The position numbers and the translations under genes are program-made. This document shows positions 9,211 to 25,433 of a stretch of 64,000 bases of DNA, piece by piece (positions within the stretch are counted from its first letter, which is position 1; every line of letters begins with the position of its first letter). The DNA is from Glaciecola amylolytica (GTDB lineage Bacteria; Bacteroidota; Bacteroidia; Flavobacteriales_D; Crocinitomicaceae), in assembly GCA_003856375.1 (NCBI GenBank), contig CP034120.1, forward strand, positions 2,604,001-2,668,000, in the 5' to 3' direction. The notes below the pieces were generated by a model, which was not told the origin of the DNA, did no database searches, and saw only the letters and a program-made list of their open reading frames with translations.

Positions 9211-9250
9211 GAATCACACCGACTATTTAAACAAGAAAGTAGATTGAATT

Positions 9251-9281
9251 TCTCCCCTTGAGGGGAGACCAAGAGGGGTGG
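9251..9281 (+). repeat. G-rich palindromic repeat, copy A (upstream of DUF559 gene)
   Basis: TCTCCCCT-TG-AGGGGAGA is an 8-bp perfect hairpin (9251-9268), followed by the tail CCAAGAGGGGTGG (9269-9281). The same hairpin-plus-tail plan recurs at 9698-9774, 11654-11691, 25171-25433 and, truncated, near 40141. Confidence 0.8.
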
Positions 9282-9294
9282 TAAATACGACTTG

Positions 9295-9302
9295 TATCTT
9301 TG
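9295..9302 (+). promoter_or_regulatory. Predicted -7 box (TATCTTTG) of the DUF559 gene
   Basis: TATCTTTG fits TAnnTTTG 23 nt before the ATG at 9326. It lies directly downstream of repeat copy A, so the gene seems to carry its own promoter inside the repeat-bounded segment. Confidence 0.55.
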
Positions 9303-9325
9303 AAGATCTTTCCGTAACTTAAGGT

Positions 9326-9739
9326 ATGAAGTTATACCATCACAACTACTACAATCCCAGGCTTAAAGAATATGCCCGGGAATTAAGGACAGAGACTGTT
9401 TCGAAAGCTGAAAAATACATTTGGAAGGGATTACTATCACGAAAACAAACCGGTGAGCGTTTTTTACGTCAAAGATCCATCTATAATTTTATCGTCGACT
9501 TTTTTGCTCCTGAAATCGGGTTAATCGTTGAAATTGATGGCAATTCACATATCAATAAAGGAGATTACGATCGTTATCGTGAGGACAAACTCACTTCTCT
9601 TGGATATACGTTAATCAGATTTTCGGAAGGAGATGTAATCAACAATTTAGATGTTGTCTCAGAACAAATCAGACATGTGATTCATGCTTTAAAATCGGCC
9701 ACCCTCCTAGATCCTCCCTCAAGGGAGGAAGTGGATTGA
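9326..9739 (+). CDS. DUF559 (Vsr-like PD-(D/E)XK) endonuclease-domain protein
   Basis: A 137-residue protein. SKAEKYIWKGLLSRKQTGERF, FLRQRSIYNFIVDFFAPEI and LIVEIDGNSH are the three core blocks of DUF559, a family related to the very-short-patch repair endonuclease Vsr and the PD-(D/E)XK nucleases; the Asp of IVDFF and the Glu/Asp of VEIDG are the expected metal ligands. The final residues (LLDPPSREEVD) are encoded by an inverted copy of the G-rich repeat. Repeats lie on both sides and a promoter box is internal. No methyltransferase is adjacent, so it is not an obvious Vsr/Dcm pair. Biological role unknown; domain assignment is firm. Confidence 0.85.
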   Translation: MKLYHHNYYNPRLKEYARELRTETVSKAEKYIWKGLLSRKQTGERFLRQRSIYNFIVDFFAPEIGLIVEIDGNSHINKGDYDRYREDKLTSLGYTLIRFSEGDVINNLDVVSEQIRHVIHALKSATLLDPPSREEVD

Positions 9740-9774
9740 GTCTCCCTCCTTGAGGAGGGATTAAGGGAGGTGGC
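9698..9774. repeat. REPIN-like pair: two G-rich palindromic repeats in inverted orientation (copies B1 and B2)
   Basis: B1 (9699-9730, minus orientation) and B2 (9741-9773, plus orientation) face outward. Their ends match as GCCACCCTCC and GGGAGGTGGC. Inside each is a smaller hairpin: CCTCCCTCAAGGGAGG in B1 and CCCTCCTTGAGGAGGG in B2. B1 overlaps the last codons and B2 follows the stop of the DUF559 gene; thiF ends 5 bp further on, on the other strand. This nested inverted-pair layout is what defines REPINs in other phyla. Confidence 0.75.
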
Positions 9775-9778
9775 AAAA

Positions 9779-10489
9779 TCAATACTTCAACTCCGTCTGC
9801 TTCATTGAAAGCAAATCGAAAATCCGGTAAACGTTTGTCGTAACCTGAAGTCCCAAAATACACTTCAAGGTCTCATTGACCATTAAAGTCCCGATAACTC
9901 CGGGAACAACACCCAAAACGCCGTTATCCGAGCAATTGGGTACATCTTCCGCATTGGGTGGTTCGGGGAAAATATCGCGGAGATTCTTACTTCCTTCGTA
10001 ATTGAAAACGGCTATCTGCCCCTGAAATCCTAAAATACTTCCGTAAACCAAGGGTAGACCGAGTTTCACACATGCATCATTCACCGAATAGCGCGTCAGA
10101 AAATTATCGCAGCCGTCTACCACCAGATCAAACTGAGACAAGATCGATTCTGCATTTTCGTCCGTTAAAGCACAGTCAAACAATTCGATTTTAGTATCCG
10201 GATTTTGCGCCAGAGCACGTTCTTTTGCTACTTCGGCTTTCTTTCTGCCAACATCGGCAGGAGTAAACAAAATTTGTCGGTGCAGGTTGGAATGCTCAAT
10301 AACATCAAAGTCAATGATTCCGATCGTACCAACCCCGCTGCTTGCCATGTATTGAATGATCGGACAGCCCAAACCTCCGGCACCAATTACGGCAACACGC
10401 GCATTTTTCAGCTTTACTTGTCCCAATAAACCGATTTCATCGAGAATGGTTTGTTTGGAATAGCGTTTTGCTTCGTTCTCACTAAACAT
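9779..10489 (-). CDS. thiF: ThiF/MoeB/HesA family adenylyltransferase (ThiS-activating)
   Basis: A 236-residue E1-like enzyme. The Rossmann ATP-binding motif VIGAGGLGCP is at residues 34-43, followed by IDFDVIEHSNLHRQILF, the catalytic-domain Asp segment VVDGCDNFLTRYSVND, and the NCSDNGVLGVVPGVIG block. It would adenylate the C-terminal Gly-Gly of ThiS so that sulfur can be loaded. I see no paired CxxC zinc motifs, unlike E. coli ThiF, so zinc binding may be lost. MoeB has the same fold; position directly after thiH supports thiF. The gene has a 33-bp gap to thiH and ends beside the G-rich repeat pair. Confidence 0.88.
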   Translation of the reverse strand: MFSENEAKRYSKQTILDEIGLLGQVKLKNARVAVIGAGGLGCPIIQYMASSGVGTIGIIDFDVIEHSNLHRQILFTPADVGRKKAEVAKERALAQNPDTKIELFDCALTDENAESILSQFDLVVDGCDNFLTRYSVNDACVKLGLPLVYGSILGFQGQIAVFNYEGSKNLRDIFPEPPNAEDVPNCSDNGVLGVVPGVIGTLMVNETLKCILGLQVTTNVYRIFDLLSMKQTELKY

Positions 10490-10522: not shown

Positions 10523-11653
10523 CTAATCCTCTCCCAAGGAAGCTAAATGATAACTGCGGTCCCAATCTTTCCAAACGGCTTCATACCCGCTCTGTTTGAT
10601 CAATGCAGCGATTTCTTCTACCGAACGGTCGTCTGAAATTTCAAATTGCTCCAGCGATTCCGGTTCTACGACATATCCTCCCGGATTGGTTTTCGACCCG
10701 GCACTCATGGTTGTAACTCCCAAAGGAATAATATGATTTCTGAAGTGTTCCGATTCACGGGTTGAAACCGATAATTCCACATCTTCATTCATCAAACGGT
10801 AAGCACAAATCAATTGAACCAATTCCCGGTCGCCTACAATCACATTCGGTTCGATGATTCCTTCTGCGGGTCTCATTCGCGGAAATGAAATGGAATATTT
10901 CGTCTGCCAATACGTCTTTTGCAGATAATCCAGATGCATTGCGCAAAAGAATGAATCCGTGCGCCAGTCTTCCAAACCGAGCAAAACACCCAAACCTATT
11001 TTGTGAATTCCGGCTTCGCCACAGCGATCCGGAGTATCCAAACGGTATTGAAAATTCGATTTTTTCCCCTTAGGGTGATACGCTTTGTACACATCCTGAT
11101 GGTATGTTTCCTGATACACCAAAACGGAATAAACCCCGGCTTCGTGCAATTCTTTGTATTCTTCCGTATCCAAAGGTTGAACCTCCATGGAAATATTCGC
11201 AAAATCAGTACGCATCAATTCCAACGCGTGTTTGAAATACGACATGTGCACGGTGTGATTTGCTTCTCCCGTCACTAACAAAATATGGTTGAACCCACGT
11301 TCTTTCAAAAAATCTACCTCCTGACGGATTTCATCATCGCTCAATGTTTTGCGTTTGATCTTATTATCGAAGCTAAAACCGCAATAGGTGCAAATATTGT
11401 TGCATTCATTACTCAGATACATCGGTGTATAGAGCTGAATGGTTTTTCCGAAACGTTTTTGAGTCAATTGGTGGCTGATCTGTGCCATTTGTTCCAGATA
11501 AGGCTCTGCAGCCGGAGAAATCAAAGCTTTGAAATCTTCCAGATCTCTTTTTTCTTTGGATAAAGCACGCTCCACATCTTTTGCCGTTTTGGCATAGATG
11601 GACGATTTTACATCATCCCAATTGGTATTTTGAAAAAGTGTTGTAAAGTTCAT
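10523..11653 (-). CDS. thiH: 2-iminoacetate synthase ThiH (radical SAM)
   Basis: A 376-residue radical SAM enzyme with the cluster motif CNNICTYC (C84, C88, C91). It cleaves L-tyrosine to dehydroglycine (2-iminoacetate), the nitrogen source for the thiazole ring, in place of the glycine oxidase ThiO used by some bacteria. The family blocks TLSDDEIRQEVDFLKERGF, LLVTGEANH and RMRPAEGI are present and the length is normal. It follows thiG on the same strand; the 44-nt gap between them is almost wholly a G-rich repeat whose GGGGGGAGGATAAA end lies right before the ATG and could act as a strong ribosome binding site. Confidence 0.96.
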   Translation of the reverse strand: MNFTTLFQNTNWDDVKSSIYAKTAKDVERALSKEKRDLEDFKALISPAAEPYLEQMAQISHQLTQKRFGKTIQLYTPMYLSNECNNICTYCGFSFDNKIKRKTLSDDEIRQEVDFLKERGFNHILLVTGEANHTVHMSYFKHALELMRTDFANISMEVQPLDTEEYKELHEAGVYSVLVYQETYHQDVYKAYHPKGKKSNFQYRLDTPDRCGEAGIHKIGLGVLLGLEDWRTDSFFCAMHLDYLQKTYWQTKYSISFPRMRPAEGIIEPNVIVGDRELVQLICAYRLMNEDVELSVSTRESEHFRNHIIPLGVTTMSAGSKTNPGGYVVEPESLEQFEISDDRSVEEIAALIKQSGYEAVWKDWDRSYHLASLGED

Positions 11654-11691
11654 TTTATCCTCCCCCCTTTATCCCCCTCCAAAGGGGGAAA
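11654..11691 (-). repeat. G-rich palindromic repeat, copy C, filling the thiG-thiH gap
   Basis: On the minus strand the order is TTCCCCCTTTGGAGGGGGA (hairpin) then TAAAGGGGGGAGG, the same plan as the copies at 9251 and 9741. It runs into the ATG of thiH, placing GGAGG 6 nt before the start. Confidence 0.75.
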
Positions 11692-11697
11692 CAAATC

Positions 11698-12462
11698 TCA
11701 TAAATTCAAAAATCCTGTCAACGGACTGGAAGCACTTGCCGATCTCGACACCGCACCCAATCCGGATTCGTATGCCATTCTTCCCGCTTCTACAGCCATT
11801 TTAAAGGCCAATGCCATTTCCTTTGGGTTTTGAGCAACTGCAATCGCCGTATTTACCAAAACTGCATCAGCTCCCAATTCCATCGCATATGCTGCATGAG
11901 AAGGTGCGCCGATTCCTGCATCCACGATTACGGGAACTTTACTTTGTTCGATAATAATCTCCAGAAAATCCACCGTTTTCAATCCTTTATTCGTTCCGAT
12001 TGGTGCTCCCAAAGGCATTACAGCCGCTGTTCCCACATCTTCCAAACGCTTGCATAATACCGGATCTGCATGAATGTAAGGTAAAATCACAAAGCCTAGC
12101 TTTGCAAGCTCTTCCGTTGCTTTCAGCGTCTCGATCGGGTCTGGAAGTAAATATTTCGGATCCGGATGAATTTCAAGTTTCAACCAATTGGTCTCCATTG
12201 CATCCCGTGCCAACTGCGCTGCAAAAACTGCTTCCTTCGCATTTCTTGCTCCGGATGTATTCGGCAGCAACCCGATATGTACGTGATTCAAATGGGCAAG
12301 TAAATCATCTGTTTCTGTTTCCAGATCCACTCGTTTCAAAGCCACTGTTACCAATTCGGAACCCGAAGCCAAAACGGCTTCTTCCATTTGTTTTGAAGAA
12401 CCGAATTTTCCTGTTCCCAAAAACAAACGCGATTTAAATTCTTTATCTGCTATTTTCAACAT
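11698..12462 (-). CDS. thiG: Thiazole synthase ThiG
   Basis: A 254-residue TIM-barrel enzyme that builds the thiazole phosphate from deoxyxylulose 5-phosphate, ThiS thiocarboxylate and 2-iminoacetate. It starts [20 protein letters not shown]; the Schiff-base lysine is K95 in NWLKLEI; phosphate-binding segments [14 protein letters not shown] and [11 protein letters not shown] are seen. Length is standard. It begins the thiG-thiH-thiF group. About 490 bp of divergent intergenic DNA precede it and no TPP riboswitch is visible there, so this half of the locus must be expressed from an unrecognised promoter. Confidence 0.96.
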
Positions 12463-25170: not shown

Positions 25171-25433
25171 ATCCTCCCCCTTAATCCCCCTCCAAAGGGG
25201 GAGATTTTTAATCCTCTTTCAAAAAGAGAATGTTATCATCTTGTCTTAAATATTCGAAGCAAACTTTAATCTTTAAAGGGAAATCTTTGCTTTCCCTATC
25301 CAAAGGGGGAGATTTTTAATCCTCTTTCAAAAAGAGAATGCTATCATCTTGTCCTAAATATTCGAAACAAACTTTAATCTTTAAAAGGGAAATCTTTGCT
25401 TTCCTCTTTGGAGAACGGGATTAAGGGGAGGAT
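25171..25433. repeat. MITE-like element: outward G-rich repeats enclosing two tandem 108-bp units (copies D1 and D2)
   Basis: The ends are ATCCTCCCCCTTAATCCC (25171-25188) and GGGATTAAGGGGAGGAT (25417-25433), inverted copies differing by one C. Between them two direct repeats of 108 bp (25192-25299 and 25300-25407, about 95 percent identical) follow each other, each starting CCAAAGGGGGAGATTTTTAA. There is no reading frame of note and no clear target-site duplication. The hairpin and tail belong to the same family as the copies at 9251, 9698 and 11654. Confidence 0.75.

Follow-up and report, generated by a model that had tools for sequence, protein, structure and literature searches.

A 64,000-nucleotide stretch of Glaciecola amylolytica DNA (contig CP034120.1, positions 2,604,001 to 2,668,000; hereafter the window) carries a predicted DUF559 nuclease gene enclosed by short repeats, each consisting of a hairpin and a tail that mirrors one of its arms. 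We think it somewhat probable that this unit is a mobile element, in which the DUF559 nuclease is the enzyme and its own hairpin-plus-third-strand repeats are the ends, and which is analogous to the RAYT-REPIN system without being homologous to it. The reading is based on a lineage-wide association of gene and repeat, the mirror rule that the tails obey, the conservation of active-site residues, a link between gene and repeat copy number within genera, two loci where gene and repeats are jointly present or jointly absent, and insertions of the unit in frame within other genes. A bacterial repeat family without a known partner enzyme gains, in the DUF559 nuclease, a strong candidate for that role.

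An earlier note on the window had described a DUF559 gene wrapped in repeats A, B1 and B2 and had suggested a RAYT-REPIN-like system with a non-HUH partner. The arrangement is borne out by matches to PF04480, to a covariance model and to a detector of triplex motifs, and it proved wider than first noted. The interpretation is supported in sum; the mirror tail, the Escherichia coli case and the in-frame insertions had escaped that reader. The components of the unit, in window coordinates, are as follows.

9248..9282, + strand: repeat A (type III); covariance-model match, E 4.7e-9; triplex-motif match at 9251-9279; hairpin TCTCCCC-TTGA-GGGGAGA, then a spacer, then the mirror tail AGAGGGG
9295..9302, + strand: TAnnTTTG box (TATCTTTG), read in the sequence, just upstream of the ATG
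9326..9739, + strand: DUF559 nuclease open reading frame (ORF), 137 aa; Pfam PF04480, E 1.2e-25, residues 13-119
9698..9732, - strand: repeat B1 (type IV); covariance-model match, E 5.7e-9; triplex-motif match at 9701-9729
9740..9774, + strand: repeat B2 (type II); covariance-model match, E 5.6e-10; triplex-motif match at 9743-9771

Each of the three repeats is 35 bp long. B1 and B2 form an inverted pair whose starts are 42 bp apart, and the 3' end of the ORF is shared with B1, which encodes its last residues. The internal TAnnTTTG box, present where the earlier note had placed it, is presumably a Bacteroidota-type -7 promoter element. When the repeat was sought with an exact degenerate pattern, the genome yielded no matches; a covariance model took its place, built from 54 repeat sequences of this genome and its relatives; A, B1 and B2 are among those sequences, so their scores are partly a matter of construction. 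A detector given no more than the rule 'hairpin plus mirror tail' found four matches in the window, namely the three repeats around DUF559 and 25175-25202, and none in each of five dinucleotide shuffles. Across the genome (4.6 Mb, one contig), the covariance model detects 54 repeat copies (E < 0.01), alongside one DUF559 gene. Ten neighbouring pairs of repeats, B1-B2 among them, lie less than 200 bp apart, where 0.14 would be expected by chance, and all ten are inverted. Seven are spaced by 116-123 bp and several have a common spacer recognizable by eye; it is the inversion, the regular spacing and the shared spacer that make these pairs REPIN-like.

The repeats fall into four subtypes that follow a single grammar: a pyrimidine arm, a loop, a purine arm, a short spacer and a tail mirroring the purine arm. 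Read from the sequence, a hairpin with a mirror tail marks a purine-motif intrastrand triplex, here putative; the triplets of that motif are C-G*G and T-A*A or T-A*T. The combination of a purine-arm hairpin and a mirror third strand, which defines TM/PIT class II, is found in the repeat. When pyrimidine-armed hairpins near DUF559 were collected without regard to their tails, 180 of 246 were followed on one side by a perfect (8/8) mirror tail, against none on the opposite side, while 300 shuffles that dealt the tails out among the same hairpins averaged 25 such cases and never exceeded 37. Like hairpins farther from DUF559 behave similarly (45 of 63), and the mirror tail is therefore a property of the repeat rather than of the neighbourhood. 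Over 32 distinct arms, a mirror fitted better than a direct repeat in 22, worse in six and equally well in four. The folding energy of the hairpin is unremarkable (z -1.1 to -1.8, by a program that has no third-strand model); the improbable part is the mirror tail.

Within an alignment of 49 DUF559 sequences, E29, E69, D71 and H75 are invariant, and D58 and D82 occur in at least 90%. We take this conserved E/D/D/H/D catalytic pattern to be the one called EDxHD. The structure model (mean predicted local distance difference test score 86.5) lies nearest to 3hrl, which is NGO0050 of Neisseria gonorrhoeae (E 1.2e-6), and then to the homing endonuclease I-Bth0305I (6.9e-5), with weaker matches to PvuRts1I-type enzymes (about 1e-3) and to Vsr (0.02-0.04; 1cw0 and 1vsr among the matches). 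The ORF is predicted to encode a DUF559 nuclease of the Vsr/EDxHD fold. The E. coli homologue YcjD had earlier been assigned to the PD-(D/E)XK superfamily (PMC1189080), and a Thermosynechococcus DUF559 gene has been called an EDxHD homing type (PMC9403480).

The association of gene and repeat was assessed in two sets. The same-family set comprised 81 DUF559 genes, chosen by hand from the family matches, with the window's own gene included and pseudogenes and orthologues among them; loci L002-L005 (DUF559 in or beside other genes; G and L numbers are our handles for genomes and loci), six duplicates, most weak matches and some fragments at contig edges were set aside. The other-lineage set comprised 80 of 583 relatives, picked by protein similarity to E. 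coli YcjD. A triplex motif lies within 400 bp of DUF559 at 64 of the 81 same-family genes by the strict rule, so that sister genes do not regularly lack the repeat; such a regular lack is what the earlier note had named as refuting its reading. The corresponding figure for other lineages is 70 of 80, and 54 of these 80 loci carry the motif on both sides. Motif density is 2.65 (family) and 2.68 (other lineages) per kb within 400 bp and falls to 0.033 and 0.074 per kb at distances over 800 bp, a 36- to 80-fold difference. Flanking motifs are mostly inverted, the nearest pair being in the (+ -) arrangement at 30 of 39 family loci and 45 of 54 other-lineage loci that have motifs on both sides. By phylum (tallied by hand from record titles), the motif accompanies DUF559 in Pseudomonadota (50/59), Desulfobacterota-like records (7/7), Cyanobacteriota (2/3), Chloroflexota (2/2), Nitrospirota, Planctomycetota, Rokuibacteriota and Spirochaetota (1/1 each) and unplaced records (5/5). 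A Deinococcus plasmid locus shows it, and two of five other plasmid loci do not under the strict rule. Among viral contigs there were nine pattern matches, none related to the window protein, and phages gave three weak matches.

E. coli K-12 is itself a case, with a triplex motif 168 bp beyond the stop codon of ycjD. The fabI-ycjD-sapF stretch is present at 80% or more in 3362 of 5426 E. coli genomes. In the fabI-sapF interval, the site held by ycjD in L092 is occupied by an efflux operon in L093-L095, and alignment is lost some 40 bp ahead of the triplex motif; because the operon sits there (three records), E. coli without ycjD offers no clean empty site.

Copy number was compared across 200 genomes of the family, of which 79 have DUF559 and 123 at least one repeat (counts run to 34, the top value meaning at least 34). 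The earlier note had set in advance that repeats should not be equally common without DUF559; the median is 12 in the 79 genomes with the gene and 0 in the 121 without (p about 1e-15, relatedness not corrected for). Among 13 genera in which both kinds of genome are visible, the median is higher with DUF559 in 11, equal (both 0) in two and lower in none, and label shuffles within genera reached the observed value in 0 of 10000 trials, which handles relatedness at the genus level only. This recount covers the 169 of 200 genomes of visible genus; the other 31 have neither DUF559 nor repeat and could only lower the medians of the gene-free group. A standalone DUF559 gene is present in 64 genomes, chosen by reading the match list, and only one of the 64 has no repeat.

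Genes with the RAYT domain, Y1_Tnp, were followed in the same genomes and occur in 119 of the 200. An ordinary least squares fit of repeat number gave t 10.2 for DUF559 and 3.2 for Y1_Tnp. All 16 genomes with DUF559 and no Y1_Tnp have repeats (median 7), whereas genomes with Y1_Tnp and no DUF559 have a median of 1. In the stretches fetched around the genome's single Y1_Tnp gene and the family's 12 best-scoring ones (2.2-3.4 kb each), the motif occurs at 0 of 13 loci, in agreement with the non-HUH partner that the earlier note had proposed. A strong RAYT role in repeat spread was rejected on the copy-number fit and these motif-free loci. The genome's only Y1_Tnp gene (L290, C1 at about 3183071) adjoins what looks to be a class I tRNA synthetase gene, with no triplex motif nearby.

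Gene and motif are also present or absent together at conserved loci. At the window's own locus, beside a ThiF-like gene, G000 and G059 have the unit; G030, G010, G104 and G129 keep both neighbours and have neither DUF559 gene nor motif, and in G010, G104 and G129 the neighbours are separated by another sequence. At a second locus, marked by a helicase gene (DEAD-box by reading of its translation), repeats, gene and repeats follow one another in five genomes, and neither gene nor motif is found within 1.5 kb in G001, whose helicase gene matches that of G024 at 93.0% DNA identity. The additional sequence at this locus begins, in G066 and G054, with the tail sequence GTCACCTCCC. Of the marks of an insertion sequence or MITE, inverted flanks are usual around DUF559; the comparison at the helicase locus shows no clear target duplication, and its junctions are unclean. 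A tree of the helicase gene lacked resolution, with some rows badly aligned, and was not used. Plasmids were searched for an empty site at strain level, and none was found: the seven Azospirillum records covering the region carry the unit at 99-100%. In Sinorhizobium meliloti Ak57, the 3' part of the DUF559 gene and its downstream flank have been lost, not the whole unit.

Some units lie inside genes. DUF559 occurs within or at the end of 14 long frames that were translated, ten of which were scanned with Pfam. Nine of these have host-protein domains on both sides of DUF559 (MetH in three, LeuRS in three, HsdR in two and a UvrD-type helicase in one), while in the tenth, HsdM, no domain was recognized after DUF559. 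Thirteen of 14 other MetH loci are uninterrupted; the fourteenth was unreadable.

Individual loci of other lineages show further arrangements. In L355, a Deinococcus proteolyticus plasmid, the unit at about 1400-1860 is flanked by the halves of a 16-nt inverted repeat, with tails outward as at the helicase locus, and looks as if it had entered a terminator-like hairpin at the loop. At 1816-4340 of L333, a Synechocystis B12 plasmid, DUF559 has an ORF annotated as DUF1156 on one side and, on the other, sequence that is 80% identical to a DUF1156 gene of Planktothrix, as if the unit had split such a gene; the orientation of its repeats is reversed (- upstream, + downstream). A Neisseria gonorrhoeae record, L354, has an array of triplex-type repeats (2041-2735; three periods of 281 bp) downstream of its DUF559 gene. 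By eye, the repeats near DUF559 in Sinorhizobium L337/L338 are a hairpin with a mirror tail and a nested hairpin as spacer, and we take them to be RIME-like.

In a proposed mechanism for the mobile element, each repeat would fold into a hairpin when its region becomes single-stranded during replication or repair, with the tail laid back as a third strand. The Vsr-fold nuclease would recognize the folded repeat and nick near the tail, and repair of the nick would copy or move the gene between the repeats. Acting in trans, the same process could copy or move short inverted pairs that lack the gene, giving dispersed REPIN-like copies. We infer that the nuclease binds and cuts the repeat, with the folded single strand as its substrate, and that it drives the spread of the repeats. 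Also in favour of the reading are a fold whose nearest match after 3hrl is the homing nuclease I-Bth0305I, a weak but significant co-variation of protein and repeat, a Caulobacter DUF559 protein that accounts for the SOS response of cells missing a methylase (PMC12907096) and, in evolved Legionella, DUF559-transposase segments that act as recombination hotspots (PMC12308824). More tentatively, and short of what we would call probable, the system may be a categorically new class of mobile element: one in which a Vsr-fold nuclease reads a hairpin with a built-in third strand, without HUH transposases, occurring in many phyla and generating the intrastrand-triplex repeats of E. coli, Neisseria and others, for which no maker has been known.

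Several observations weigh against the mobile-element reading. The strict motif is missing at 17 of the 81 family genes and 10 of the 80 other-lineage genes; a nested-loop variant, with a nested hairpin in the spacer, is found at seven of the 17 and at none of the 10. Repeats are retained by 51 of the 121 genomes without DUF559, ten of which have at least 15 (G088, for example); the gene is evidently not needed for the repeats to persist. G001, too, has no DUF559 match yet keeps 22 repeats, and its empty helicase site is probably a loss of the unit, since more distant genomes (86.7%) carry it. At that locus the last tail (GGGAGGTGACC) in G066, G054 and G024 stops 16-36 bp from resumed homology with G001, in which GTCACC, possibly a tail remnant, is kept at the break. 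Given this offset and the GTCACCTCCC start, the tails stand at or near the ends of the element and the junctions are inexact. The insert in MetH of G002 has no full motif, only a decayed hairpin. In two type I copies, the single strand may fold differently, its 5' arm pairing with the tail. Different repeat subtypes enclose DUF559 gene cores of 88-93% identity, so either the fold and not the sequence would be recognized or the repeats were exchanged later. The co-variation of protein and repeat, which itself counts for the reading, is weak though significant (70 loci, Mantel r 0.15, reached in 0 of 2000 permutations and in 4 of 2000 after allowing for GC); strict cognate specificity, one gene to one subtype, is not supported. 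From published work, a stable triplex of the E. coli repeat TM_ECO was not seen in vivo (PMC4666352). In an evolution study of Legionella pneumophila, three segments with a transposase and DUF559 were hotspots of mutation and recombination; the presence of the transposase in those segments weakens what they say for DUF559 (PMC12308824).

The main rival, which we regard as unlikely though worth serious attention, is selfish homing by DUF559, with repeats made by another process serving the nuclease as landing sites and homology arms; the repeats would be its habitat and not its product. The closest named enzyme fold is indeed that of a homing endonuclease, I-Bth0305I, and two further points count for homing: similar gene cores are found between different subtypes, and there are repeat-bearing genomes without DUF559 beside a single standalone-gene genome without repeats. 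Homing, however, requires another maker of the repeats, for which Y1_Tnp is a poor fit. Moreover, the ThiF-locus alleles that lack the gene show no motif where a resident repeat would be expected, though in three of the four the neighbours have a different sequence between them. The helicase locus, probably a loss, says little on this point.

It is improbable that the repeats are cis elements, such as terminators, autoregulatory operators or stabilizers of mRNA, which are spread by ordinary recombination around a nuclease with a cellular function. Their frequent position on both sides of the gene, overlapping its 3' end at several loci, and the wide retention of fabI-ycjD-sapF in E. coli would suit such a role. 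Dozens of copies away from DUF559, the usual inversion of flanking copies and the units in frame within unrelated genes would not, and earlier work is reported to have found these motifs without promoter or terminator activity (PMC4666352).

We consider it quite improbable that DUF559 is a Vsr-like repair nicking enzyme, linked to mismatches or methylation, that acts at repair-prone G-rich repeats, so that the linkage would reflect repair hotspots instead of mobility. The Vsr-like fold agrees with it, on direct Vsr matches that are weak, as does the Caulobacter DUF559 protein VsrA, which is tied to a cytosine methylase (PMC12907096); it leaves inverted flanks, in-frame insertion and co-variation with repeat type unexplained. 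Finally, that a RAYT/IS200-type Y1 transposase spreads the repeats with DUF559 as a passenger is highly improbable, its frequent occurrence and weaker positive coefficient in the family being outweighed by its motif-free loci and by the repeats kept in genomes that have DUF559 alone.

The mobile element that we favour resembles several known systems without coinciding with any. With I-Bth0305I it shares the fold, the pattern of catalytic residues and, in the likely reading, selfish spread; the DUF559 unit differs in being bracketed by repeats and found at many sites, and no intron or intein was noticed, none having been searched for. With Vsr and very short patch (VSP) repair it shares a related fold, the difference again being a gene bracketed by repeats. 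Rickettsia palindromic elements are inserted in frame in protein genes, as is the present unit, but here the insert carries a nuclease gene. The likeness to RAYT-REPIN lies in short palindromic repeats that occur singly or as inverted pairs in tens of dispersed copies, in a small nuclease gene flanked by repeats and in the occurrence of repeats without the gene (PMC3733652, and otherwise general background). The enzyme here, by contrast, is of the PD-(D/E)XK/EDxHD fold instead of being an HUH Y1 transposase; a mirror tail is part of the repeat, whose consensus lacks GTAG, the tetranucleotide at the foot of RAYT-REPIN repeats; and the gene stands at varied sites, some in frame inside genes. The closest match for the repeat itself is the TM_ECO/PIT class, of which 23 copies occur in E. 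coli K-12 and whose single strand was shown to form a triplex in vitro (Holder et al. 2015, PMC4666352). These are class II purine hairpins with a mirror third strand, intergenic, with five inverted pairs in E. coli (PMC4666352), and by its structure the motif near ycjD belongs to this class. The parts of that paper drawn on here name neither a mobility gene nor any class of gene as a companion; both the DUF559 partner and its linkage to the repeats in many lineages go beyond them.

In the open-licence PMC literature, as represented by titles, openings of abstracts and passages, no published link between DUF559 and these repeats was found. The link makes both sides testable, since the repeats point to what the enzyme may act on, and the enzyme to what may make the repeats. 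If the mobile-element reading is true, there would be a second, unrelated way of running a REPIN-like system, whose signal is read from a non-B DNA fold, and it could account for part of the genome plasticity reported around triplex motifs.

Elsewhere in the window, dispersed repeats occur at two places.

11658..11692, - strand: single dispersed repeat between ORFs 10523-11653 and 11698-12462; model match, E 2.4e-8; not matched by the strict triplex detector
25171..25205, - strand: dispersed repeat, the left end of a REPIN-like pair; model match, E 7.1e-9; triplex-motif match at 25175-25202
25206..25433, no strand: REPIN spacer in two tandem copies with degenerate right-hand repeats, from the sequence; the degenerate repeats have no model match at E <= 0.05

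Both full copies had been listed among the further repeats of the earlier note, which overcounted: what it counted at 25304 and 25400-25433 are the degenerate halves of a repeat pair that has been duplicated, and 40141 is a tail-less hairpin, none of them matching the model at the same threshold. The stretch from 25171 to 25433 is a REPIN-like pair with a tandem duplication of its spacer and right half, and spacers resembling this one are seen by eye beside other repeat copies. In L063, L087/L010, L088 and L240, a small palindromic insert with AAAGCACTGCTTT-like stems lies in the loop or arm of some repeats, which look as if they had served as targets for other small elements.

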